Source of the DNA: Cognatishimia activa
Lineage (GTDB): Bacteria; Pseudomonadota; Alphaproteobacteria; Rhodobacterales; Rhodobacteraceae
DNA: 64,000 bases
Direction: 5' to 3'
Assembly (NCBI RefSeq): GCF_026016445.1
Contig: NZ_CP096147.1
Span: 2,516,501 to 2,580,500 of the forward strand
The notes below the pieces were generated by a model. The model saw only the letters and a program-made list of their open reading frames with translations. It had not been told where the DNA came from and ran no database searches. Positions 875 through 18,867 of this stretch are shown in pieces (the stretch's first letter is position 1; each line of letters begins with the position of its first letter). Both the position numbers and the translations under genes were made by a program.

Positions 875-1176
875 CGATCCAACTCCGCCATTAGTTTTTC
901 AAGATCGGGCTTCGGCTCACCTGCTTTGTAGGTGATCAGGAATTTATCCGAGACCGTGTCGCGAACTGCATTGAAGAACCGCCCGCACCCATGAATATGG
1001 CGCCAACGTTCAAAATGCAGACCTTTCACATTTGCACGGATAAAGAGGAATTTCTCCCATTCTTCATCGCTAAGCTCAGAGGGGTTTTCAGGACGCACAA
1101 TATGCGCCTCGCCTGCATAGGCGAATTCAGCCTCTGGCAGGAGTTCATCACAGTAAGGGCAATGGATCAGTAGCAT
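871..1176 (-). CDS. soxD: Sarcosine oxidase delta subunit
   Basis: Small structural subunit of heterotetrameric sarcosine oxidase, 101 residues as usual for the family. It carries the zinc ligand pattern of SoxD: Cys6 and Cys9 in HCPYC, then His60 and Cys64 in HIHGCG. The N-terminus MLLIHCPYC is the standard family start, so the start at 1176 is secure even though it lies inside the end of soxB (29-base overlap). It overlaps soxA by 4 bases. Expected in the cytoplasm in complex with SoxA, SoxB and SoxG. Confidence 0.95.
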   Translation of the reverse strand: MLLIHCPYCDELLPEAEFAYAGEAHIVRPENPSELSDEEWEKFLFIRANVKGLHFERWRHIHGCGRFFNAVRDTVSDKFLITYKAGEPKPDLEKLMAELDR

Positions 1177-2440
1177 TTTGATCTCCCTTGTGAGCTACGG
1201 CGGCAGCAGCCGCTTCGTCGATTAGGCGCCCGGTGCGGAAACGCTCCATGGTGAATGGTGCGTTGATCGGGTGCGGTTCATTTTTGGCGATGGTCCAAGC
1301 GAAGGTATGGGCAGACCCAGGTGTGGCTTTAAAGCCGCCAGTACCCCAGCCACAGTTGACGTAGAGCCCTTCGACAGGAGTTTTGGAAATGATTGCGGAG
1401 CGGTCAGGTGTCACGTCCACAATCCCACCCCATTTCCGCAGCATGCGCATGCGGTTGAAAATAGGGAAAATCTCAGAGATCGCAGCGACTGTATGCTCGA
1501 TCAAAGGCAGGCCGCCTCGCTGGCTATAGCTGGTGTATTGATCGGTTCCCGATCCGATCACCAATTCGCCTTTGTCGGACTGGCTGATGTAGGCATGCAC
1601 CGCATTAGACATCACCACGCACGGGAAGATCGGTTTCACCGGTTCACTAACCAGCGCCTGCAACGGATAGCTTTCAAGCGGCAACTGGACATCAGCGGTT
1701 TGCATCACCACCGATGTGTGACCCGCAGCGGAAACGCCTACTTTCTTGGCTTTGATAAAGCCCTTCGCCGTTTCCACACCGGCAACTGACCCGTCTGCGT
1801 TGCGCCGAATAGCCGTTACTGGGCAATTCTGGATGATATCCACACCCCGCATCGCCGCGCCGCGCGCATAACCCCACGCAACCGCATCATGCCGAGCTGT
1901 TCCGGCACGTTCCTGAAGCGCTCCACCCATCACCGGGTAACGTGCGTTCTTGGAAATGCTGAGAGGCGGGCAGTATTCTTTACACTCTTCAGGAGTGAGC
2001 CAACGGTTATCCACCCCGTTAAGACGGTTTGCGTGCACATGCCGCTTAAAGCTCTGAACATCGTGCACATTGTGCGCCAGCATCAAAACCCCGCGACGGG
2101 AATACATGACGTTGTAGTTCAAATCCTGGCTGAGGTTCTCCCATAGATCGACTGCGTGATCATAAAGCCGCGCGCTTTCATCATAGAGATAGTTGGACCG
2201 GATAATCGTCGTGTTACGGCCGGTGTTCCCACCGCCAAGCCAGCCTTTATCGATCACAGCGATATTGGTGATGCCATGTTCCTTGGCAAGATAATAAGCC
2301 GCCCCAAGCCCGTGCCCTCCGGCACCGACAATGATGACATCGTATTCATCTTTGGGCTGGCTATCGGGCCATTGCTCGGTCCAATTTTTGTGACCACCCA
2401 AAGTATGTTTCAGCAGTGAAAGAGCACTAAAGCGAGACAT
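1148..2440 (-). CDS. soxB: Sarcosine oxidase beta subunit
   Basis: Catalytic FAD/FMN subunit of heterotetrameric sarcosine oxidase, 430 residues. The Rossmann FAD motif GAGGHGLGAA is at about residues 39-48. His184 in GTARHDAV is in the position expected for the histidine that covalently holds FMN in this family. The family usually ends shortly after the RTGRLIDEAAAAAVAH stretch; here about 14 more residues run into soxD, giving a 29-base overlap. The gene lies 107 bases downstream of an IclR gene on the same strand, so it may have its own promoter or be read through from it. Confidence 0.94.
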   Translation of the reverse strand: MSRFSALSLLKHTLGGHKNWTEQWPDSQPKDEYDVIIVGAGGHGLGAAYYLAKEHGITNIAVIDKGWLGGGNTGRNTTIIRSNYLYDESARLYDHAVDLWENLSQDLNYNVMYSRRGVLMLAHNVHDVQSFKRHVHANRLNGVDNRWLTPEECKEYCPPLSISKNARYPVMGGALQERAGTARHDAVAWGYARGAAMRGVDIIQNCPVTAIRRNADGSVAGVETAKGFIKAKKVGVSAAGHTSVVMQTADVQLPLESYPLQALVSEPVKPIFPCVVMSNAVHAYISQSDKGELVIGSGTDQYTSYSQRGGLPLIEHTVAAISEIFPIFNRMRMLRKWGGIVDVTPDRSAIISKTPVEGLYVNCGWGTGGFKATPGSAHTFAWTIAKNEPHPINAPFTMERFRTGRLIDEAAAAAVAHKGDQNATDPLPLL

Positions 2441-2547
2441 GGTCCGACCCGTTCGTTCGCGAAATTGAAGATGATTGAGACTAGATCAAATGCGAAACAT
2501 CAGTCGGAATATTTGCGTCACACAAAGAGTAAAATCTCGCCATGCAA

Positions 2548-3216
2548 TCAGACGGGCAGTGAACCAGCGACCTCTTCAAGAACAGGGACCGCACGCTCAC
2601 GCGCCTCGCGATCAAATCGGCTGCGTACACCAGAAATGGCCAAGGCACCCAACAGGTCTCCGGAACTCGAAAACACAGGGGTCGCGATCGAGGAAATGTC
2701 AGGCATGGTCTCTGCTACTGAATGCGCTGTCCCGCGGGCGTTTAACTCACCTGCCCTGCCCGTTTCTTCACCTGAAAAATGTCGCAAAACCAACCCCGAT
2801 GCCCCGGAGGTCAGGTTTAGGCGAATTCCCTCCTCCGCATGAAATCGAACAGCACTCGGAGAGTTTTCGCGATAAAGACACACTCTTTGATCACCTGCCC
2901 GAACATAAAATGACGCCGTCTCCCCAGAAAACTCCACAAGTTTGCGAAGGCTCGGCTTCACGACATCTCGGCTAAGGAATTCTTTTCGAAACAGAAGACC
3001 AAGTTGCCACACGCTAGGCCCAACGCTGAACTTGCCGGTATTATCGCGGCGGATAAATCCATACAGCGTCATCGAATTCGTAAGACGCAGCACTGTGCTT
3101 TTGTGCAGCCCTGTTTCATGCGCCAACTCGGTCAAAGTCAACTTAGGCGTCTCGGTTGTGAACGCCAAAAGTATCGACATCGCGCGCTCAACGGATTCTG
3201 TACGAGTTGCCACCAC
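2548..3216 (-). CDS. IclR-family transcriptional regulator
   Basis: DNA-binding regulator of 222 residues, a little short for the family (about 250). The N-terminal winged helix-turn-helix spans roughly residues 8-65 (TLTELAHETGLHKSTVLRLTN); an IclR effector domain follows, with the typical ATPVFSSSGDLLGALAISG stretch near the C-terminus. The start is GTG, preceded by GGGAG at good spacing. It is divergent from the AtuA/DUF4387 pair and upstream of soxBDA in the same direction, so either could be a target. An inverted repeat lies in the shared upstream region at 3354-3372. The effector is not predictable from sequence. Confidence 0.92.
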   Translation of the reverse strand: MVATRTESVERAMSILLAFTTETPKLTLTELAHETGLHKSTVLRLTNSMTLYGFIRRDNTGKFSVGPSVWQLGLLFRKEFLSRDVVKPSLRKLVEFSGETASFYVRAGDQRVCLYRENSPSAVRFHAEEGIRLNLTSGASGLVLRHFSGEETGRAGELNARGTAHSVAETMPDISSIATPVFSSSGDLLGALAISGVRSRFDREARERAVPVLEEVAGSLPV

Positions 3217-5123: not shown

Positions 5124-6632
5124 TTATTTTTTGCCTGCGACTATCCGGTCAAGGATCAATGCGCAGAATAGAATGGCCAAACCGGCCAGAATCCCTTGTC
5201 CTGCTGCCGCATATTGCAGCGCTTCCAGAACATCTTCGCCCAGACCTTTCGCACCAATCAGCGAGGCCACAACAACCATCGCAAGGGAAAGGAGGATCGT
5301 TTGGTTCACTCCGGCCATGATCGTGTTGCGGGCCAGAGGCAGATCCACACGCCACAGCAGGTAGCGAGGGGTCGCACCGAAGGCCAAAGCGGCTTCACGC
5401 ACGGTCTCCGGGACCTGCTGCAAACCAAGGACCGTAAAGCGGATCACAGGAGGTGAACCGAAGATCATGGTCGCAACCACACCTGCCGGCTTACCGGAAC
5501 CGATGAAGGCCACAACCGGGATCAGATAAACAAAGGACGGCATGGACTGCATGAAGTCCAAGATTGGTCGGATGATCGCATAGACCTTTGGGCGACGGGC
5601 ACAATAGATGCCCAGCGGAATACCCAGCGTGATCGAGATCAGCGCCGCGGCCCCCAGGAGCGCGATGGTGGTCATCGCTTTTTCCCAGAAGTCCAACAGA
5701 CCTAAGTATGCCAGCGCTGCACCTGTGAAGATCGCAACACGTGCACCGGCAGATAGGTAAGCCAGCATGACGATCACAAAGGCAACAACCGGCCAAGGCG
5801 TATCCACAAGCACCACTTCGATCCAGTCAAGCAGCGTCCGCATGCCGAAGGTCAGGCTGTCAAAGAAGCCACGACCGTGCAGCTTGGTCCAGTCAAAGCC
5901 CGCTTGCACACCGTCACCAACATTCAAGCGCCAGTTTCGATCCGTTGGGAAAGTCGACAGAATAGCGAATGCATCTGGCTGCGCGAATTTGATGCTGGTC
6001 AGAACCACAACGCCAAACGTCAGAACCGCAGAGATGATCATCCGCATTTGCGACCAACCGCTGTTCACACTGCGATCAGAGCGCCACTTGGCGAATTGCA
6101 TTTCCAAGGTCCAGTTGGCGGTCGCGGCCTGCAGGAATTTAAACCCAGCAAGAAGCACGATACCCACGATCAAAAAATAGGTGCCGGTATTGTCCGCAGA
6201 AATCGCTGCTTGTTGCGCATTGGCTAAAGCACCTTCTAGACTTTCGGCAGCGCGCTTCAGCGACTCCAGCGAAGAGGCTCCCGATTTCTCAGCCGCCTCG
6301 ATCTGTTGGCGGCGCAGCTCCAATGTTTGTGCGATTTGGTCCGCTCGTTCTCGGAAGTCACGACCAAGATCGCCAAAGAGGCCCAAACCGATCTGGATAT
6401 AGGCCATGGTTTCCAAAAGCAGGAAACCCAGCATCCAGTTCCAAAGGCCACGCGCGCCAAACCAAACTGGTCCAAGAAGACCTGCAACCCAGTTCAGTGT
6501 GAAGCGATAGCCGGGGGCCTGCATCATGAAGCCAAAGGTTTCTTTGTAATATGCTTCGCTGCTGCCAACGAATTGGCCGATCAGCCCATTCAGACGCTCA
6601 GCGGTTTCAGGCTTGATATCTTGATTGCTCAT
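5124..6632 (-). CDS. tmoW: TMAO ABC transporter permease (ProW type)
   Basis: Inner-membrane permease of a quaternary/methylated amine importer, 502 residues. The C-terminal half is a BPD_transp_1 domain with the EAA-like coupling segment AALAFGATPRYLLWRVDLP. The N-terminal half has extra membrane segments and a charged, coiled-coil-prone stretch at about residues 90-145 (RERADQIAQTLELRRQQIEAAE). It lies 11 bases after tmoV. Sequence alone fits a betaine/proline permease; the TMAO assignment comes from linkage with tdm and tmoX, the arrangement known for roseobacter TmoXVW. Confidence 0.88.
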   Translation of the reverse strand: MSNQDIKPETAERLNGLIGQFVGSSEAYYKETFGFMMQAPGYRFTLNWVAGLLGPVWFGARGLWNWMLGFLLLETMAYIQIGLGLFGDLGRDFRERADQIAQTLELRRQQIEAAEKSGASSLESLKRAAESLEGALANAQQAAISADNTGTYFLIVGIVLLAGFKFLQAATANWTLEMQFAKWRSDRSVNSGWSQMRMIISAVLTFGVVVLTSIKFAQPDAFAILSTFPTDRNWRLNVGDGVQAGFDWTKLHGRGFFDSLTFGMRTLLDWIEVVLVDTPWPVVAFVIVMLAYLSAGARVAIFTGAALAYLGLLDFWEKAMTTIALLGAAALISITLGIPLGIYCARRPKVYAIIRPILDFMQSMPSFVYLIPVVAFIGSGKPAGVVATMIFGSPPVIRFTVLGLQQVPETVREAALAFGATPRYLLWRVDLPLARNTIMAGVNQTILLSLAMVVVASLIGAKGLGEDVLEALQYAAAGQGILAGLAILFCALILDRIVAGKK

Positions 6633-6643
6633 GATCGATCCCC

Positions 6644-7696
6644 TTACGCCTGGCTATCTTGAATTGCGCGGATCAGACCCGCACGGTTTATCACACCAAC
6701 CGTTTTGTGGTCGGCATCAGTCACGGCAACAATTCCGTGACCTTCCACGCAAAGGTTCATGAGATCACTCAGGTCCATATCCGGTCGCGCCTTCTGAGCA
6801 TCTCCTGGAAGATCCCCGTGTTTGGCCTGGAATTCATCCACCGGCTGCATCACTGAATGCGCGAAGATCATGTTGAGCTTGGAAATACCCGCCACAAAGT
6901 CCGACACATATTCATCTGCTGGGTTCAGAATGATCTCTTCAGGTGTACCAATCTGCACGATACGACCATCCTTCATGATAGCGATACGGTGACCAATACG
7001 GATCGCCTCATCCAAGTCGTGCGTGATGAACATGGTTGTCTTTTTCAAGCGGTTGGACAGCTCCATGAACTGGTCCTGCAGCTGTTTACGGATCAGCGGG
7101 TCAAGCGCAGAAAATGGCTCGTCCATCAGCAGGATTTCTGGATCAGAGGCAATCGCACGGGCCAGACCCACACGCTGCTGCATACCACCGGATAGTTCAT
7201 GGGCGTATTTGTCTTCCCAGCCGGTCAGCTCCACCAGTTCAAGCACTCGATCCGCTTCTTCCCAACGGCGTGCTTTGCCTGTACCGCGGATTTCCAGCGG
7301 CATCGCCACGTTGTCGCGCACGGTACGGTGCGGCATCAGTCCGAAGTTCTGGAAGACCATCGCAACCCGACGGTTGCGCAAGTCACGCAGACCTTCTGGG
7401 TTCAACCCCATCACGTCTTCGCCGCCAAGATAGATGTGACCATCGGTCGGTTCCAAAAGGCGGTTCACGTGACGAACAAGCGTCGACTTGCCCGAGCCCG
7501 ACAGACCCATTACGCAGAACAATTCGCCTTTTTCAATTTCAAAGCTCGCGTCGGCCACACCGACCACGCAGTTAAAGCGTTCGAGCACTTCGGCCTTACC
7601 CAGACCTTCGGCGTGGATGGCCTTCAACGCTTCTTTTGAGCGGTCGCCAAACACTTTCCAGACGCCTTTGGCGTCAATTGCAATTTCTTTATCCAT
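6644..7696 (-). CDS. tmoV: TMAO ABC transporter ATP-binding protein
   Basis: ATPase that energises import with TmoW, 350 residues. Walker A GLSGSGKST is at 64-72, the signature LSGGMQQR and Walker B ILLMDEP follow, and then the switch histidine in FITHDLDEA. The C-terminal 70 residues resemble one CBS repeat, as in ProV-type ATPases that sense ionic strength or cyclic dinucleotides. A long insert-like N-terminus (residues 1-45) precedes the core, as in other ProV proteins. It is separated from tmoX by 73 bases holding a strong hairpin. Confidence 0.9.
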   Translation of the reverse strand: MDKEIAIDAKGVWKVFGDRSKEALKAIHAEGLGKAEVLERFNCVVGVADASFEIEKGELFCVMGLSGSGKSTLVRHVNRLLEPTDGHIYLGGEDVMGLNPEGLRDLRNRRVAMVFQNFGLMPHRTVRDNVAMPLEIRGTGKARRWEEADRVLELVELTGWEDKYAHELSGGMQQRVGLARAIASDPEILLMDEPFSALDPLIRKQLQDQFMELSNRLKKTTMFITHDLDEAIRIGHRIAIMKDGRIVQIGTPEEIILNPADEYVSDFVAGISKLNMIFAHSVMQPVDEFQAKHGDLPGDAQKARPDMDLSDLMNLCVEGHGIVAVTDADHKTVGVINRAGLIRAIQDSQA

Positions 7697-7721
7697 CCCA
7701 TCCCCGCGGAGAAACGTTGTT

Positions 7722-7745
7722 CCTCGGCGGCAATTGCCGCCGAGG
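7722..7745 (-). promoter_or_regulatory. Perfect 24-base palindrome (mRNA hairpin) between tmoX and tmoV
   Basis: A 10-base stem CCTCGGCGGC closed by an AATT loop, perfectly self-complementary. No T-run follows on the minus strand, so it looks like an mRNA-stabilising or processing hairpin rather than a terminator. It lies just after the tmoX stop, where a hairpin could protect the tmoX message and keep the binding protein in excess. Confidence 0.7.
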
Positions 7746-7769
7746 TATTATTGATGAAAACGAGAGCCC

Positions 7770-8732
7770 TTAGCTCAGGCCAAGCCAGCCATCGACGATG
7801 TCACCGTTGTTTTCGATCCACTCGGAAACAACCTCATTGATGTCACCACCCTGAACCACAACTTTGTAGGTCAGCTCAGACAGGGACTGCGCGCTCATGT
7901 CGATGTTTGCCAGGAAGGACGCTGCTGCCGGGTTCCGCTCATTCAGAGAGTTGGAATATGCAACAGTCACGGTTTTCACAGGCTCACCTGTGTCCACGCG
8001 GGACTTGTTGTACCAGTCTGCGTCTTGGTCAGGCTGAACCATTTTGTAGGTATTCGGATCGTTTTCTGGCTCTTCTAGGATGGTCACAGGATACAGCGCG
8101 TGTACGTAATGTGGGGCATAGCAATAAAATGCTGCACCTTTCTTTTGGTCAACCAGATCCTTCAAACGAGAGTAGAACACTGTTTCGTCTTCGGTGGTTG
8201 GCTCAAGGAAGGTTTCAATACCGTAGTCACGCACACGAACTTTAAATGTGTTTGTAGACGCCCAACCTGACGCACCGACCCAAACTTCGCCTTTGCCATC
8301 ACCATCGGAGTCAAAGAGATCTTGTGCTGTCGGAGTCGCAAGATCGTAGATGGATTTAATGTTGTGCTCTTCAACCATGTAGTTTGGAACACAGATACCC
8401 GCGCGCCCTTCATAAGAACCAGCAGACAGGGACACGGTGCCCTTTTCGTCTACATATTCGTTTGTGAAGGAAGACTGGTTTGGCAGCCAAACATCTGGGT
8501 GCACGTCGATGTCACCACGACCGCCATCCATGGACGCGAAGATAACCGCGTTCGCGCCAGGTGCATAACCCGCTTCGCCACCAAGGCGTGTCTCAATGAT
8601 CTGGCCAATAATGCGGCTCATGATTTTCGCACCTGGCCAGCTTGGCTCGCCCACCATGACTTTATCCTGAGCCATGGCACCGGTTGTACCGATTGCCATT
8701 GCCAGAGTTGCTGTAAATACTAGTTTTTTCAT
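7770..8732 (-). CDS. tmoX: TMAO-binding periplasmic protein
   Basis: Periplasmic solute-binding protein of an OpuAC/ProX-type importer, 320 residues. A signal peptide is clear (basic MKK start, hydrophobic stretch, cleavage after GAMA). The mature part has the OpuAC-like opening VMVGEPSWPGAKIMSRI and the GGRGDIDVHPDVWLPNQ segment, with several tryptophans of the kind that cage methylated nitrogen. It is 31 bases downstream of tdm. Betaine or choline cannot be excluded from sequence alone; linkage to tdm makes TMAO the best call. Confidence 0.9.
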   Translation of the reverse strand: MKKLVFTATLAMAIGTTGAMAQDKVMVGEPSWPGAKIMSRIIGQIIETRLGGEAGYAPGANAVIFASMDGGRGDIDVHPDVWLPNQSSFTNEYVDEKGTVSLSAGSYEGRAGICVPNYMVEEHNIKSIYDLATPTAQDLFDSDGDGKGEVWVGASGWASTNTFKVRVRDYGIETFLEPTTEDETVFYSRLKDLVDQKKGAAFYCYAPHYVHALYPVTILEEPENDPNTYKMVQPDQDADWYNKSRVDTGEPVKTVTVAYSNSLNERNPAAASFLANIDMSAQSLSELTYKVVVQGGDINEVVSEWIENNGDIVDGWLGLS

Positions 8733-8763
8733 ACCTTTTTCTCCCGTTGGTGTTTGTATGAGC

Positions 8764-11091
8764 TTATGCTCGTGCCCGCTTTCGTTGCGGGTCTATGAAT
8801 GGAATATCGGTCACGGTAGCGTTCAGGCGTTTCATACGTCCGTCCAGCAAACCAACTTCCAAAATCTTGTCATTCTCTGCGTATTCGACGGCAATGCGGG
8901 CCATCGCGATTGCACGTTCCAATGAAGGCGAGCGGGTCGCGGATGTGATCTCGCCGATCTGACGCTCTCCTGCGTAAACAGGTGATCCATGCGTCGGCAC
9001 GTCATCACAATCAAAGAGCAATCCTTTTAAAACACGACGCGGATCTTTCGCGTTGCGTTCCAGAGCTTCTTTGCCTCGGAAGGTTTCTTTCTTCAGATCA
9101 ACCGCAAATCCCAAACCGGCTTCAAATGCGTCAACGCCCGGAGGGAACTCCGCTGCCGCCGCAGCAAGGCCTGCCTCAATACGGATGATTTCAAGCGCAT
9201 CAGACCCCATGGGCTTAATGCCAAACTCTTCACCCGCTTCTATAATCGCGTCCCAGACCTCAACGGCGTCGGACTTCGCACAGAAGACCTCATACCCAAG
9301 TTCGCCAGTGTAGCCGGAGCGGGACAACATGAATGGCGCGCCGTTCCGGTCATTCAGCCGCGCGACTGAAACACCAAACCATTTCAGATGGTCGAGGTTG
9401 GGAACCGTTGGCTGGAAGAAGCAGATCTTCTTCAAGAGATCACGAGACTTGGGTCCTTGGATCGCAAGATTAGGTAAGCTGTTGCGCATTTCATGGATAC
9501 GCACCTGAAGGTTCATTTCTTCAGCGAGCGCATTCAACGTCCGGCCGCTTTCTTCCGAACCACAGAACCAGCGGAACAGATGATCACCCAATCTGAAGAG
9601 CGTTCCGTCATCAATGACTTGTCCACTTTCATCACACATGAGGGTGTAAGTGCCACGCCATACCGCCAGTTTGGCGATGTTTCGCGTTAGAGCGTGCTGC
9701 AAAAGCGTCTCGGCGTCTGGACCGATGATGTCATATTTTCGCAGACCACTCATATCCTGGATGGTCACTGCATTGCGGCAGGCCCAGTATTCACCGAGTG
9801 TTCCTGTGCCCGGAAAGCTGACAGGAGTCCAAAGATCCCGTGCGGGGGCAAAATGTTCTGTCAAAGGGGCCAGCCGCTCGTGGAAAGCGGATTCTTGACT
9901 GATTGACATTGGGGCGTCTTCCTTTTCGCGATAGGCCACCGCGCGCCTGATGGGCGTGTCTGGCCGGTAAATACGCACATGCACATCGGTTGGGTTCCAA
10001 CCGTTGATGGGATCGATGTCATCTGGGCAGGCTGTTGAGACGCAAACCAGATCTTCCATCGCCCGCATCACCACATAGTCCCCTGGACGCGAATGAGATT
10101 CCGCTGTCATCAGGTGGTTGCTGTTGTGATCGATCCAAGTGTTCCAGAAAAAGTTGATCGCAGGCCACGCAGAGCGCTTTTTGATCCCGTATGGATCAAG
10201 CGCATAAGACATGTTGTCTGAACAGTTCACATGCCCCGGAAATCCACGTTCTTCATAGCCACGCGCCGTGCAGGCCAGACCAAAAGCGTCATGGCGACCG
10301 CAGGTATCCTGAACCATGTTCAACAGCGGGCGCATGTCTTGGTCGTAGAATTTATCCAACATACCCGGGCCGGGATAGGCTCGACCAACCATTGTTCTAG
10401 TCGCCGTAGAGTCGATCATGATTTCGGTCTGTCGATCCAGACCCGCCATGCAGAAAGCCATGAAGTCGGAACACTGCTGGCCCTCAACATCGATGATTTG
10501 CACGTAGTCGCCCTTGCGCACCTCATAGGCAATGCCGGTGCCGGTCTGAACGGTGAACTCATCTCTCGTATCGCCAAGCAAAGGCGGCAGGTGGCTAGAG
10601 GTAAAGGACGCCAGTTTATGCGTTACTGAAACTGTTCCGTTTCCTTTCGCCGAAACCAGCGAAAACGCCTCCACCGGGCGGCAAAGCCATAGGGTCACAG
10701 ACGCCCGCGCTTTCAGAATCAGGTCTTCATCCTGCCCCTCATATCGCGCACTTGAGATGTCTGCGGAAACATCGCCGCCGTTTGCAGAGATCCACCCTTT
10801 AAGTGCACGGCTGTCGAACTTTGAAAGATCCAATTGGTTGGTTGCAACCAGGTTCACCTTGCCCAAGGCCGCAATTCCATCCGGTGCAAAAGCAGCAATT
10901 TCCAAAGGCACATCTGCCTCAACACCTTGAATCGTTAGAAGATCACCGGCCTCCATTTCGATTTCAATCGCCTCGCGGCTTGCGATTGCGTGGTGTCGAA
11001 CACCAGAGTTTTTCTCAAACCCCGAGAAGTGCCGACGGGATTGAAGAAACCCCATATTACTGAAGTCGTGGAGAACGGTTTGGCCAAGCAT
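8764..11091 (-). CDS. tdm: Trimethylamine N-oxide demethylase (aldolase)
   Basis: Converts TMAO to dimethylamine and formaldehyde; the formaldehyde is thought to be captured by tetrahydrofolate bound to the C-terminal domain. 775 residues with two parts: a DUF1989 region (about 170-365) and a GcvT-like folate-binding region (about 400-765). Asp209, His287, Cys290 (GHVNC) and Cys355 (STACPDD) match, with a shift of 11-12, the metal/active-site residues I recall for the Methylocella enzyme (D198, H276, C279, C343). Residues 40-110 look like a degenerate copy of the DUF1989 fold. The ATG at 11091 has a poor ribosome site; Met13 (11055) is a plausible alternative that would better fit that numbering. 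Operators lie 18 bases upstream. Confidence 0.92.
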   Translation of the reverse strand: MLGQTVLHDFSNMGFLQSRRHFSGFEKNSGVRHHAIASREAIEIEMEAGDLLTIQGVEADVPLEIAAFAPDGIAALGKVNLVATNQLDLSKFDSRALKGWISANGGDVSADISSARYEGQDEDLILKARASVTLWLCRPVEAFSLVSAKGNGTVSVTHKLASFTSSHLPPLLGDTRDEFTVQTGTGIAYEVRKGDYVQIIDVEGQQCSDFMAFCMAGLDRQTEIMIDSTATRTMVGRAYPGPGMLDKFYDQDMRPLLNMVQDTCGRHDAFGLACTARGYEERGFPGHVNCSDNMSYALDPYGIKKRSAWPAINFFWNTWIDHNSNHLMTAESHSRPGDYVVMRAMEDLVCVSTACPDDIDPINGWNPTDVHVRIYRPDTPIRRAVAYREKEDAPMSISQESAFHERLAPLTEHFAPARDLWTPVSFPGTGTLGEYWACRNAVTIQDMSGLRKYDIIGPDAETLLQHALTRNIAKLAVWRGTYTLMCDESGQVIDDGTLFRLGDHLFRWFCGSEESGRTLNALAEEMNLQVRIHEMRNSLPNLAIQGPKSRDLLKKICFFQPTVPNLDHLKWFGVSVARLNDRNGAPFMLSRSGYTGELGYEVFCAKSDAVEVWDAIIEAGEEFGIKPMGSDALEIIRIEAGLAAAAAEFPPGVDAFEAGLGFAVDLKKETFRGKEALERNAKDPRRVLKGLLFDCDDVPTHGSPVYAGERQIGEITSATRSPSLERAIAMARIAVEYAENDKILEVGLLDGRMKRLNATVTDIPFIDPQRKRARA

Positions 11092-11108
11092 ATCCAGATT
11101 CGCGCTTA

Positions 11109-11122
11109 TGTAACTGGTTACA
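11109..11122. promoter_or_regulatory. LacI-type operator, tdm-proximal
   Basis: TGTAACTGGTTACA, a palindrome broken only in the central pair, with the same half-site as the operator at 11131-11144. It is 22 bases centre to centre from that site, about two helical turns, so two dimers could bind on one face. Confidence 0.8.
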
Positions 11123-11130
11123 CAGCCTCA

Positions 11131-11144
11131 TGTAACTAGTTACA
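11131..11144. promoter_or_regulatory. LacI-type operator, lacI-proximal
   Basis: TGTAACTAGTTACA, a perfect 14-base palindrome in the tdm/lacI divergent region. A TTGACA on the minus strand (11152-11147), a good -35 for tdm, lies directly upstream of this operator in the tdm direction, so binding would interfere with tdm transcription. No convincing -10 was found. Confidence 0.82.
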
Positions 11145-11197
11145 CGTGTCAAGTTTTTCTATTTCTCTCACTCAAAAAAAACGCTACTGCTGGGCTA

Positions 11198-12202
11198 ATG
11201 CGCAAAATTGGTAATCAAAAACGAGCGAACTTAAGAGACGTTGCAAAGGCGGCAGGTGTTTCCGTTGCAACGGTTTCACGTGTCTTAAATTCACCGGACT
11301 CTGTCGCGCCGGAAACGCGGGCAAAAGTTCAGAGCACAATCTCCGAATTGCGCTTCATGCCCAGCGCCGCCGCACGCGCCATCAATAGCGGTCGCACTCG
11401 ATTTGTCGGTGCATTGGTTCCAACTCTCGACAACGCGATTTTTGCGAGCTTTTTGTCTGCACTGGAAAACAAGCTTAACGATTACGGGTTGGCCTTGATC
11501 GTCTCAACAATCGGCGAGAACCCACAGCTAGAAGTTCAAAAAGCGCAGTCTTTGATTAACCTGGGCGCAGAAGCTTTGATACTGTCAGGCGCCGCACATG
11601 ACCCAAAGCTTTTCCAGCTGACAAACCAAACGCGGTTTCCCACTCTCGCGACATCCTTCTATGACGACAGCGCGCCGCTTCCGACCATCGGATATGACAA
11701 CCACGATGCCGCTCAGCTTGGCGTTCAGTATTTAAAAAGCGCTGGCCATCGGCACATCGCGGTGGCGCATGGACCTGTTGAAACAAATGACCGAACGCAG
11801 GCACGCATCAACGGTGTTCAATCGGTTTCTGGAATGACCATCGACTACCACGAAGCAGATATTTCTTTTGAAGGCGCCCAAGTGATCGCGCGTAACATCT
11901 TGGCACAAAAAGACAGGCCAACTGCCGTCGCATGCATGTCAGACGTATTGGCCATTGGTTTACTGCAACAATTTCAGCGCAGTCATTTGCGTGTGCCGGA
12001 AGACATCTCTGTTCTTGGGATGGACGACCTTCCCTTCGCGGCACACACTTTCCCTGCGCTTTCGACCATCCATCTGCCAGTGAAGCGCATGGGGACAGCT
12101 GCAGGACGAGCCATCGGAGAGTGGCTGGAACATGGAAACGAACCCGCGCCAGAGCGGTTAGAACCGCAATTGATCTTGCGAGAATCCGTTGCTGAAATTT
12201 AG
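11198..12202 (+). CDS. LacI-family regulator divergent from tdm-tmoXVW
   Basis: 334-residue repressor-type regulator. The helix-turn-helix LRDVAKAAGVSVATVSRVLN is at residues 12-31, the hinge helix follows (AAARAINSG), then a periplasmic-binding-protein-like effector domain, ending in the family stretch LGMDDLPFAAHTFPALSTIHLP. Two palindromic operators lie upstream, between it and tdm, so autoregulation and control of TMAO use are likely. I know of no LacI regulator described for TMAO catabolism. The 3' end overlaps the convergent waaA stop by 4 bases. Confidence 0.92.
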   Translation: MRKIGNQKRANLRDVAKAAGVSVATVSRVLNSPDSVAPETRAKVQSTISELRFMPSAAARAINSGRTRFVGALVPTLDNAIFASFLSALENKLNDYGLALIVSTIGENPQLEVQKAQSLINLGAEALILSGAAHDPKLFQLTNQTRFPTLATSFYDDSAPLPTIGYDNHDAAQLGVQYLKSAGHRHIAVAHGPVETNDRTQARINGVQSVSGMTIDYHEADISFEGAQVIARNILAQKDRPTAVACMSDVLAIGLLQQFQRSHLRVPEDISVLGMDDLPFAAHTFPALSTIHLPVKRMGTAAGRAIGEWLEHGNEPAPERLEPQLILRESVAEI

Positions 12203-14488: not shown

Positions 14489-14603
14489 GATAGGGTCTTA
14501 TCGCCGAAGCAATTGATAATGAAAAGAGGCAGGAAAAACCCAGTGCCTACAAGGTGCAAAGCGTTTCCTGCCTGCTCTAAGGAATTCCTTCGGAAAGCAA
14601 AAT

Positions 14604-14615
14604 GTAATCGATTAC
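14604..14615. promoter_or_regulatory. LacI-type operator 1, upstream of isomerase operon
   Basis: GTAATCGATTAC, a perfect palindrome, same half-site as the sites at 14658 and 18854. It is centred 55 bases upstream of operator 2, close to five helical turns, which would suit a repression loop. Confidence 0.75.
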
Positions 14616-14634
14616 TTTTTCCATTGACAATGTC

Positions 14635-14663
14635 TTGAACATTGCATCATGAATATATGTAAT
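14635..14663 (+). promoter_or_regulatory. Sigma-70-type promoter of the isomerase/dehydrogenase operon
   Basis: TTGAAC (14635-14640), 17-base spacer, TGTAAT (14658-14663). The -10 is the left half of operator 2, so repressor binding would block polymerase. The call rests on sequence match only. Confidence 0.55.
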
Positions 14664-14671
14664 CGATTTCA
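14658..14671. promoter_or_regulatory. LacI-type operator 2, overlapping the promoter -10
   Basis: TGTAATCGATTTCA, one arm perfect and the other degenerate relative to TGTAATCGATTACA. Confidence 0.7.
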
Positions 14672-14760
14672 TAACTGTTTTAGAACAAGTTTCACGCACA
14701 AAAAGGTGTGAGAAAATCGAACGAAAAACATGTTACCAAATGGGAAAAATGGAGATGCCC

Positions 14761-16651: not shown

Positions 16652-17707
16652 ATGCCCGCAACCATGAAAGGTCCGGCACTGTTTCTGGCCCAATTTGTCA
16701 GTGACGATGCCCCATTCAATACTTTGCCCAACATCGTGAGATGGGCGGGTTCCCTTGGCTATAAGGGTGTCCAAATCCCGTCCTGGGACGCACGACTGTT
16801 TGACCTCGCTCAGGCTGCAGAAAGCCAGGACTATTGTGATGAGATCAAAGGAATCTGCGCAGCGAACGGCGTCGAAATTACGGAGCTTTCCACGCATGCT
16901 CAGGGCCAACTAATGGCTGTCCACCCGGCTTACAATGAGGCGATGGACATGCTGGCACCCTCTGAAGTGCAGGGCAATTCTGAGGCGCGTACTGCGTGGG
17001 CCAAAGATCAGCTGATTATGGCCGCCAAGGCCAGCCGAAACCTCGGTTTGGACGGTTCTGTAAGCTTTACCGGGTCACTCGCCTTCCCTTTCCTATATCC
17101 CTGGCCACAGCGGCCAGCTGGATTGATTGAAGAGGCCTTTTCAGAGCTGGCCAAGCGGTGGCGCCCGGTCTTGGATGTCTATGACGAGTTTGGCGTCGAT
17201 GTCGGATACGAATTGCATCCGGGCGAGGACGTTTTTGATGGTGCAACCTTCGAGCGCTTCCTTGAGGCTCTGGATAACCACCCCAGATGCCAGATCAACT
17301 ACGATCCCAGCCATTTCGTGCTGCAGCAGCTCGATTACCTGGAATTTATCGATATTTACCACGAGCGGATTAGCGCGTTTCACGTCAAAGACGCCGAATT
17401 CAATCCGACAGGGCGTCAGGGCGTGTATTCAGGCTATGAAAGCTGGGCCAATCGCGCCGGTCGTTTCCGGTCCTTAGGCGACGGCCAGGTGGATTTCCGT
17501 GGCGTCTTCTCTCGATTGGCGACTCATGGCTACGACCGCTGGGCAGTCCTGGAATGGGAATGCTGCCTGAAACACCCTGAGGACGGTGCTGCCGAAGGTG
17601 TCCCCTTCATCAACGATCACATTATCCGGGTGACAGACAAAGCCTTCGATGATTTCGCAGGTGGAGATTCTGATCCCGGTCAGATCCGTCGAATGCTGGG
17701 GCTATGA
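16652..17707 (+). CDS. Second sugar phosphate isomerase/epimerase-like protein
   Basis: 351-residue TIM-barrel protein of the same superfamily as the gene at 14761 but longer and clearly divergent. Metal-ligand-type segments include ELHPGEDVFDG, NYDPSHFVLQ, FHVKDAE and VLEWECC near the C-terminus. AGGAG precedes the ATG at good distance and the gap to the dehydrogenase is 9 bases. The 3' end overlaps the convergent lacI gene by 28 bases. Two such proteins beside two Gfo/Idh dehydrogenases resemble glycoside oxidation/elimination loci, but the reaction is inferred. Confidence 0.86.
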   Translation: MPATMKGPALFLAQFVSDDAPFNTLPNIVRWAGSLGYKGVQIPSWDARLFDLAQAAESQDYCDEIKGICAANGVEITELSTHAQGQLMAVHPAYNEAMDMLAPSEVQGNSEARTAWAKDQLIMAAKASRNLGLDGSVSFTGSLAFPFLYPWPQRPAGLIEEAFSELAKRWRPVLDVYDEFGVDVGYELHPGEDVFDGATFERFLEALDNHPRCQINYDPSHFVLQQLDYLEFIDIYHERISAFHVKDAEFNPTGRQGVYSGYESWANRAGRFRSLGDGQVDFRGVFSRLATHGYDRWAVLEWECCLKHPEDGAAEGVPFINDHIIRVTDKAFDDFAGGDSDPGQIRRMLGL

Positions 17708-18741
17708 CCCTGCGCGGCCTGCGAAGTACTTTCGCGGGCCACAAGATCCACACTCAGGACTTCTGGCCCCATGTTCTGCGCATTGGGCCCAGCAGAATCT
17801 GCCTTCAGGCTCTGCAACAACATCTCAGCCGCCCGCGCACCGATCCGATGACGGTCCTGTCGAATGGTCGTCAGGCTAGGCACGAAGACCTGCGCAAGAT
17901 CGATATCGTCAAAGCCAACAACCGAAATGTCCTCGGGCACACGAATGCTCAGCGCTTTCAATCCGGATATCAGGCCAAATGCCACCTCGTCAGACGCACA
18001 GAAAACCGCGGTTGGACGATCTTCCATGGCAAACACCCTCTGGGCGGCATCTAGCCCGGACTGCACAGAGAAGTCGCCACGGATGATCCATTCGGGACGC
18101 GTCTCCAGGCCAAGTCGTTCGCGCTCTGTCACCATGCCCTGGCGCCGCTCCTTTGTCAGGACATTGCATTCAGGTCCGGTCACATGTGCAATTTTCCGAT
18201 GGCCCAGATCATACAAATGTCGAACAGCCAGTTGTGCTCCCATCGCATTGTCGACCCGCACCGAAGGGTAATCTGAGTGGGCGACCCATTCGCAGGCGAA
18301 GACGATTTTATTGCTGCCCGCGCCCTGATCAAAGCGCTTCAACTCTTCCTCACTCAGATCACCGTCCAAGCTGATCATGCCATCAACACGTGAGGCCATG
18401 AAAAACTCGGCCAGTTTGCCCTTTTGACGTTCAGCAGAGCTATCCGCGATAAGCACAGAGAATTCACTTTCGGCCAAGACAGAATTGATGCCCGCAAGGA
18501 TTTGGCTGAAAAATGGATTCCCCAGATTTGGAACAAGGATCAACACTGCACCTGCGCGCTGTTTTCTCAGGTTGCGCGCAGCCTGATTCACCCGATATCC
18601 GGTCTTCTCAATCGCATCGAAAACCGCCTCGCGAGTCGTCTTCGTCAACATATCCGGGTTGGACAAAGCCCGACTGACAGTCGCTGTTGAAACTCCTGCC
18701 TCTCGGGCAACATCCTGAATTCGAGCGTTTTTTGGGGCCAT
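17680..18741 (-). CDS. LacI-family regulator of the sugar locus
   Basis: 353-residue regulator. Helix-turn-helix IQDVAREAGVSTATVSRALSN at 8-28, hinge helix NQAARNLRKQRAG, effector domain with the stretch VVGFDDIDLAQVFVPSLTTIRQD. It sits between the isomerase/dehydrogenase operon and the ABC importer operon, divergent from the latter. Four TGTAATCGATTACA-like palindromes occur, two before each operon, and it is the obvious binder. Its recognition helix differs from the TMAO-locus LacI at the specificity position (Thr versus Val after GVS), in line with the different operator centre. Confidence 0.93.
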   Translation of the reverse strand: MAPKNARIQDVAREAGVSTATVSRALSNPDMLTKTTREAVFDAIEKTGYRVNQAARNLRKQRAGAVLILVPNLGNPFFSQILAGINSVLAESEFSVLIADSSAERQKGKLAEFFMASRVDGMISLDGDLSEEELKRFDQGAGSNKIVFACEWVAHSDYPSVRVDNAMGAQLAVRHLYDLGHRKIAHVTGPECNVLTKERRQGMVTERERLGLETRPEWIIRGDFSVQSGLDAAQRVFAMEDRPTAVFCASDEVAFGLISGLKALSIRVPEDISVVGFDDIDLAQVFVPSLTTIRQDRHRIGARAAEMLLQSLKADSAGPNAQNMGPEVLSVDLVARESTSQAAQGHSPSIRRI

Positions 18742-18821
18742 TCTGGCGTTCTCCTAGCTTGCCTATCGCTACCTGTGCAAAGACGTCTTGACAAGAGGTG
18801 CCGACTCAATGAATGCTTCCA

Positions 18822-18835
18822 TGCAATCGTTTACA
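18822..18835. promoter_or_regulatory. LacI-type operator 3, upstream of the sugar ABC operon
   Basis: TGCAATCGTTTACA, an imperfect copy of the palindrome at 18854, 32 bases away centre to centre (three helical turns). Confidence 0.65.
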
Positions 18836-18859
18836 TATCAGTTTGCTCACAAATGTAAT
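18830..18859 (+). promoter_or_regulatory. Candidate promoter of the sugar ABC operon
   Basis: TTTACA (18830-18835), 18-base spacer, TGTAAT (18854-18859). Both hexamers lie within operator palindromes, mirroring the layout at 14635-14663. An alternative TTGACA at 18788 has no good -10. Confidence 0.45.
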
Positions 18860-18867
18860 CGATTACA
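18854..18867. promoter_or_regulatory. LacI-type operator 4, perfect palindrome
   Basis: TGTAATCGATTACA, perfect over 14 bases and the best example of the motif in the locus; it ends 53 bases before the ATG of the binding-protein gene. Confidence 0.82.

Follow-up and report, generated by a model that had tools for sequence, protein, structure and literature searches.

According to passages of PMC13390433, the AraC-type regulator TmaR of Ruegeria pomeroyi activates the gene of the classical trimethylamine N-oxide (TMAO) demethylase, tdm, with a downstream catabolite of methylamine as effector, and the GntR-type regulator TmoR represses tmm, with dimethylamine (DMA) and TMAO as effectors. The LacI-family survey PMC4052901 describes local repressors that are encoded divergently from their targets, bind even palindromes at a single locus and are expected to regulate themselves; most characterised family members sense sugars, and as effectors other than carbohydrates it names nucleobases, nucleosides and a protein. 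Here we analyse a 64,000-nucleotide stretch of the genome of Cognatishimia activa (NZ_CP096147.1, positions 2,516,501 to 2,580,500; hereafter the window), in which a lacI-family gene is divergent from a gene that we call tdm2, encoding a relative of the TMAO demethylase Tdm, and from the genes of an ATP-binding cassette (ABC) importer for onium compounds. Sequence comparisons make it likely that a local, probably autoregulated LacI repressor-operator module controls this tdm2-importer operon. As with TmaR and TmoR, a Tdm-family gene of a roseobacter would be under specific control, but the regulator adjoining tdm2 is LacI-type, neither AraC- nor GntR-type, and the LacI module is a separate arrangement on an enzyme paralogous to classical Tdm. 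It shares with the surveyed LacI repressors the divergent regulator, the even palindrome, the single-locus sites and the expected autoregulation; its target, in contrast, is an onium importer with a demethylase-like enzyme rather than a sugar pathway.

The text of PMC13390433 nowhere contains the word LacI, nor do the passages of PMC4543880 and PMC7574528 that were searched. Searches of openly licensed PMC papers gave no article that combines LacI with TMAO demethylase, or LacI with TMAO and TmoX, which does not imply absence from print, and broader searches, judged by titles and abstract beginnings, gave nothing on a lacI-Tdm2-importer module.

The first-pass annotation of this DNA had noticed two near-identical 14-base palindromes, 22 bases apart, between a tdm gene and a divergent lacI, with a minus-strand TTGACA beside them. 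This observation is confirmed, with the coordinates right, and is stronger than first claimed. The predicted distal operator O1 (TGTAACTAGTTACA, 11131-11144) is a perfect palindrome; the predicted proximal operator O2 (TGTAACTGGTTACA, 11109-11122) is symmetric in six of its seven base pairs, the central pair being asymmetric, and the start-to-start distance of 22 bp is read directly from the sequence. On the tdm strand, O1 lies just 3' of the -35-like TTGACA of tdm2 (11152-11147, minus strand), at a distance of 2 nt. The regulator gene (11198-12202, plus strand) encodes 334 residues with a helix-turn-helix at 12-56, a hinge isoleucine at 62 and a PurR-like ligand domain. Divergent from it on the minus strand are tdm2 (8764-11091; 775 residues, DUF1989, GcvT and GcvT_C domains) and the genes of an OpuAC-type onium-binding protein (7770-8732), a ProV-like ATPase of the betaine/proline/choline family (6644-7696; 360.6 bits with TIGR01186, cut-off 326.6) and a 502-residue permease (5124-6632; 88.5 bits with PF00528), separated from one another by gaps of 31, 73 and 11 nt. 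The window has two exact copies of the operator pattern, and these are the only two in the 3.21 Mb genome; both lie in the lacI-tdm2 gap, and a scan of the genome at one mismatch gave no further operator.

The first-pass annotation had pointed to the upstream regions of other roseobacter tdm genes; most loci with a related tdm carry the same arrangement. An enzyme scan of a species-genome collection kept 80 of 91 relatives, and genomes of the same bacterial family contributed 16 more loci. Four duplicates were removed, as were three loci whose upstream DNA is short, which left 90 scorable loci, the window included. An operator was scored at up to one mismatch to TGWAACYRGTTWCA, with first-order Markov shuffles as background. 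A divergent lacI adjoins tdm2 in 76 of the 90 loci, and 75 of these 76 have the operator (shuffle mean 0.05 of 76), compared with 2 of the 14 loci that lack an adjacent lacI, a group that includes one locus (L114) whose 176 bp of upstream DNA are too short to reveal a lacI. Two operators are present in 59 of the 76 lacI loci, at a spacing of 21-24 bp in 51. One of the two exceptional loci, L083, keeps the operator and has a LacI relative (42% identity) 6 kb downstream. None of 13 classical tdm loci has the motif anywhere along its stretch.

At genome scale the sites are equally local. Among 14 other genomes with an orthologue of this LacI, all 12 exact forward matches stand beside that lacI (the backwards-pattern control gave 2), and five of the 14 have no exact match; over the 15 genomes scanned in all, exact sites occur only beside this lacI, in the 10 that have any. 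A multi-gene regulon was rejected, as no other exact sites were found in the genomes scanned. A set of 80 loci, 1.59 Mb in all, contains 124 sites at up to one mismatch, and in the loci longer than 21 kb just three lie away from the tdm upstream region, each of them mismatched. A LacI orthologue (at least 41% identity) is found in 14 of 18 Tdm2 genomes, in none of 62 genomes with classical Tdm only and in 2 of 215 without a Tdm match; the Tdm search behind these genome classes scored at most three candidates per genome and may have missed further copies. In one of the last two genomes (G139), operators and a truncated tdm-like gene lie at a contig end. In the other (G180, locus L175) the LacI orthologue (47%) is an orphan: its neighbourhood has no Tdm-like gene, and 19.5 kb of sequence hold no operator at up to two mismatches; here the regulator is kept, and target and site are gone. 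Families of open reading frames that recur in at least 9 of 92 loci overlap, by position, the lacI, tdm2 or importer genes, and no other family at tdm2 loci is found in more than 7 of 92. The predicted module is found in many Rhodobacterales and some relatives, many of its carriers being marine bacteria akin to roseobacters.

Some tdm2 genes are organised differently. Tdm2 genes with neither lacI nor operator (at L100, L104, L105, L120, L121, L124, L125, L043, L044 and L048) would be under other control; three of them come from metagenome-assembled genomes labelled Granulosicoccaceae, and the Pfam content of the genes around a few lacI-less tdm2 loci was uninformative. A 600-kb plasmid of Paracoccus seriniphilus carries the lacI-tdm2-importer module (L196, 10529-17565), with tdm2 annotated there as two overlapping genes. 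Near the module in the window, at 1148-3216, lie a sarcosine oxidase beta subunit gene (soxB) and an IclR-type regulator gene; none of the other tdm2 loci whose neighbourhoods were surveyed showed a soxB next to tdm2.

The position of the sites relative to the promoter points to the mode of control. In all 51 closely spaced loci, the window included, the start of TTGAC is exactly 8 nt from the distal operator, on its upstream side, and in 15 of 16 single-site loci it begins 8 nt (3 loci) or 28-31 nt (12 loci) upstream of the operator; among the 8 widely spaced loci, 7 have TTGAC on the other side of the distal operator, starting 7-8 nt past it. Because the distance between TTGAC and operator is fixed, the core promoter would be covered by a bound repressor. 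If the spacer is 17 nt long, the -10 element of the window would fall on a weak GAGGCT (11124-11129, minus strand) between O1 and O2, and transcription would start inside O2. The layout fits a repressor that excludes polymerase, and we infer from it repression rather than activation. That the LacI protein binds the palindromes and represses the divergent operon is supported by the site counts and this predicted geometry.

We propose the following hypothetical mechanism, in which a LacI-family dimer would occupy each palindrome, O1 in the spacer just past the -35 and O2 over the expected start, so that RNA polymerase would be excluded from the promoter of the operon (tdm2-X-W-V, with X, W and V for the importer genes); the bound repressor would probably also curb lacI, which begins 53 nt beyond O1. 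The importer would deliver its substrate, expected to be a methylated onium compound (a quaternary amine, an N-oxide or a sulfonium compound), and this substrate or a product of Tdm2 would bind in the ligand pocket of LacI and release the protein from the DNA. Tdm2 would demethylate the substrate, and its GcvT-like domain would receive the C1 unit. The arrangement that we consider most likely is control by a repressor with sites at one locus, which is relieved when a methylated onium compound is imported, by this compound or its product.

Membership of the regulator in the LacI family is clear from PF00356 (62, curated cut-off 27) and PF13377 (102.8, cut-off 26.5); a fold comparison confirms the family and nothing more. 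The closest solved LacI protein by sequence is PurR (PDB 1qpz, 1jfs), whose hinge Leu54, exchanged in the L54M mutant (1vpw), is the counterpart of Ile62. PurR is a global regulator with purine co-repressors, whereas this LacI has sites at a single locus. The operator centres in the window are TA and TG, not the usual CG. According to PMC4052901, 1173 of 1251 even palindromes are CG-centred, 49 have another central pair and 29 are degenerate; with a hinge isoleucine and centres that are mostly TA or TG/CA, the operators of the module belong to the minority type (78 of 1251 non-CG). In our LacI alignment (78 of 80 hits kept; three duplicate genomes were left in for the hinge-centre and pocket counts and dropped for the operator counts and the hinge tree), the centre is CG at 12 of 12 sites of proteins with a hinge leucine and at 2 of 2 with phenylalanine, and a hinge methionine goes with one CG and one CA. 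The 118 sites of proteins with a hinge isoleucine have TA (70), TG/CA (41) or CG (7).

Several observations weigh against the reading proposed here. One locus, L051, has a lacI (480 bp away, 40% identity) and yet no operator, and L117 has an operator without a lacI within its 10-kb flanks; 4 of the 18 Tdm2 genomes lack the LacI orthologue. Many loci come from close relatives (Ruegeria, Leisingera, Roseibium), and the locus counts are not independent. A consensus scan of 10900-11400 found no sigma-70 promoter, the TTGACA having no good -10 partner. As for the hinge, the 7 CG-centred sites depart from the trend, and the trait changes only about three times on the ligand-domain tree; the starred branches of that tree give two independent pairs, one of which agrees and one of which shows no difference, leaving a sign test powerless. 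With so few changes, the match between hinge residue and operator centre is suggestive and reflects mostly one old split.

The strongest competitor is the interpretation of the first-pass annotation, a bona fide TMAO import and demethylation operon (tdm-tmoXVW) whose LacI responds to TMAO, DMA or another product, which we consider unlikely. Its local repressor is well supported by comparison, in view of the operator counts (75 of 76 against 2 of 14) and the TTGAC geometry, and a non-sugar effector is a reasonable inference; the labels TMAO and TmoXVW are not supported, since the enzyme belongs to a sister clade, the binding protein has no TmoX match and tmm, DmmA and GmaS have no match in the genome, and the compound sensed may be other than TMAO. 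Tdm2 has the domain order of Tdm, DUF1989 followed by GcvT. For a TMAO operon speak the NCBI TMAO-demethylase equivalog NF053776 as by far its best family, and the six metal-site residues, which were matched by a constant offset and alignment to D198, C263, H276, C279, C343 and D346 of the Zn/Fe site of Methylocella silvestris Tdm (as described in passages of PMC12560246). Their counterparts D209, C274, H287, C290 and C355 are present in 33 of 33 Tdm2 rows, and D358 in 32. The cysteine of a QDTC motif, Cys264, is valine in 9 of the 33 rows (L121, L128 and L048 among the loci) and in 1 of 13 classical rows; it was rejected as a metal ligand because the M. silvestris offset gives Cys274, and Val264 is no lost ligand.

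Against a TMAO operon, the NF053776 score of the window Tdm2 is 1061.5, under the cut-off of 1100, and four other Tdm2 proteins score 1044-1067, whereas classical Tdm proteins, by which we mean Tdm-family matches with 41-50% identity, reach 1205 and 1237 in the two that were scored. The solved Tdm (PDB 9q59) matches the window Tdm2 over residues 167-774 only and a classical Tdm nearly end to end. In a tree of 33 Tdm2 rows, chosen from 97 loci, and 13 rows of classical Tdm (12 from genomes, one from a plasmid), the two groups split with 100% support, a result that confirms rather than discovers the clade, as the labels had been set beforehand. Residue 205 is glutamine in 32 of 33 Tdm2 rows and arginine in all 13 classical rows, residue 295 is serine in Tdm2 and asparagine in classical Tdm, and from residue 160 to residue 775 another 26 columns distinguish the two groups. 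Both enzymes coexist in 6 genomes. On this evidence Tdm2 is best placed as a separate sister clade of Tdm, sharing its domain order and metal-site residues and differing from it in overall sequence, in its regulator and in the missing tmm partner. A Tdm-family gene is also present in 94 records of Rhizobium plasmids; of those among the 40 listed rows, most show about 49% identity over residues 165-775, and for many the sole annotation is DUF1989 protein.

The importer bears on the same question. Like TmoXWV it is an OpuA/ProU-type ABC importer whose binding protein has an aromatic cage, with tryptophan or tyrosine at five TmoX cage positions, and the fold of this protein ties with TmoX, although the comparison does not separate TMAO binders from those of betaine or dimethylsulfoniopropionate. 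In sequence, by contrast, it does not match TmoX (4xz6) at an E-value of 1e-3, where a true TmoX matches at 2e-85; the column of TmoX Phe106 holds glutamine, those of Phe220 and Trp222 hold tyrosine, and the nearest solved proteins are ProX and DmpX. Matches to partner enzymes of the trimethylamine oxidation pathway (tmm-tdm-dmm-gmaS) are missing as well: the window genome has no match to trimethylamine monooxygenase (tmm; NF058570, 1e-100) or the DmmA family (PF11927, 1e-10) and no GmaS relative at 1e-60. Among Tdm2-only genomes, tmm is found in 0 of 12, compared with 64 of 68 genomes with classical Tdm (p 3e-11), DmmA in 0 of 12 compared with 39 of 68 (p 2e-4, with a threshold of 215 bits set by eye at a gap in the score list), and GmaS in 2 of 12. 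TMAO is a possible substrate of Tdm2, at rather long odds, and not the favoured one.

Four loci (L046, L111, L115 and L119, type 3) show another neighbourhood, in which a CuyA-like gene precedes the importer and an alpha/beta hydrolase gene follows it. The D-cysteate sulfo-lyase (CuyA) score is 487-493 against a cut-off of 450 in L046, L111 and L115, and the L119 gene is 88% identical to that of L115. A gene on the other strand, LysR-type in the two loci checked (L111 and L119), lies between the CuyA-like gene and tdm2; given this intervening LysR gene, CuyA was rejected as a member of the tdm2 operon. A 332-residue candidate gene in L115 (12292-13290), without a Pfam or NCBIfam match, was also rejected, as it lies opposite the LysR gene. 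The CuyA neighbourhood may hint at a sulfonated or onium substrate.

A second alternative makes the LacI protein a sugar or central-carbon regulator that places the operon under catabolite-type carbon control, which appears improbable. It would accord with the sugar ligands of most characterised family members, and the positions conserved in the family are kept: Arg203 and Asp249 in 78 of 78 orthologues and in all 14 LacI paralogues from the same bacterial family that we compared, and Asp276 in 66 of 78. The pocket residues name no ligand, and with these three positions kept a sugar may still be the effector, which counts against a methylated ligand. Other pocket positions, however, set the orthologues apart from the paralogues, whose ligands are unknown: Ser153 (78 of 78) contrasts with Trp in 11, Tyr in 2 and Gly in 1 of the 14, Tyr166 (78 of 78) with Phe in 13 and Val in 1, and Ser248 (76 of 78) with Asn in all 14. 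Ser153 aligns with an aspartate of PurR (Asp146 by count on the alignment), a position close to the effector in LacI-family proteins. The ligand pocket thus appears distinct from that of the paralogues. The single-locus sites also argue against a carbon regulator, as does the regulator being kept or missing together with tdm2. In R. pomeroyi, the LacI gene hpsR is listed with dihydroxypropanesulfonate genes (PMC4334477), a likely precedent for LacI control beyond plain sugars in roseobacters.

The predicted effector is more probably a small methylated molecule than a sugar; the ligand class and the reaction of Tdm2 are predictions. A fuller version of the repressor reading, to which we give slightly less than an even chance, is that a LacI repressor was co-opted as a sensor of a methylated onium compound, or of the product of its demethylation, rather than of a sugar, that it controls a second kind of Tdm enzyme whose substrate is an imported betaine-, N-oxide- or sulfonium-like osmolyte other than TMAO, and that the hinge isoleucine moved the operator centre off CpG.

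About as improbable as carbon control is a different kind of switch, in which LacI activates tdm2 from these sites or, like PurR, depends on a co-repressor. PurR is the closest solved structure by sequence, and where the two sites are widely spaced (8 loci) the distal one is placed further upstream, before TTGAC in 7; in all 51 close pairs, however, both sites lie 3' of the -35, which suits exclusion of polymerase, and activation from upstream sites was rejected on this ground. That the palindromes serve another regulator, such as a different LacI, with the adjacent lacI incidental, is very improbable: the similar TGTAATCGATTACA serves another LacI divergon of the window, but the operator is present or absent with the adjacent lacI (75 of 76 against 2 of 14), its centre follows the hinge residue of that LacI, and the 13 classical tdm loci lack it.

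This other divergon consists of a lacI (17680-18741, minus strand) beside a sugar-type ABC operon that begins at 18813. CG-centred sites resembling TGTAATCGATTACA lie there at 18822-18835 and 18854-18867, and also at 14603-14616 and 14658-14671 before a gene at 14740, with two more exact TGTAATCGATTACA sites elsewhere in the genome; the encoded LacI has a hinge leucine, in agreement with the hinge-centre trend. Another LacI paralogue (38% identity, 458478-459458) has the palindrome TGTAAGCGCTTACA just upstream, at 458332-458345 (G000:C1).

In summary, our analysis points to a compact module of a lacI, Tdm2 and an onium importer, which under current annotation would be assigned to TMAO metabolism. 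Should a different methylated osmolyte be the true substrate, gene surveys overestimate TMAO use when they take each Tdm hit as a sign of it, and if the true ligand is a non-sugar onium compound, the known ligand range of the LacI family would be widened.

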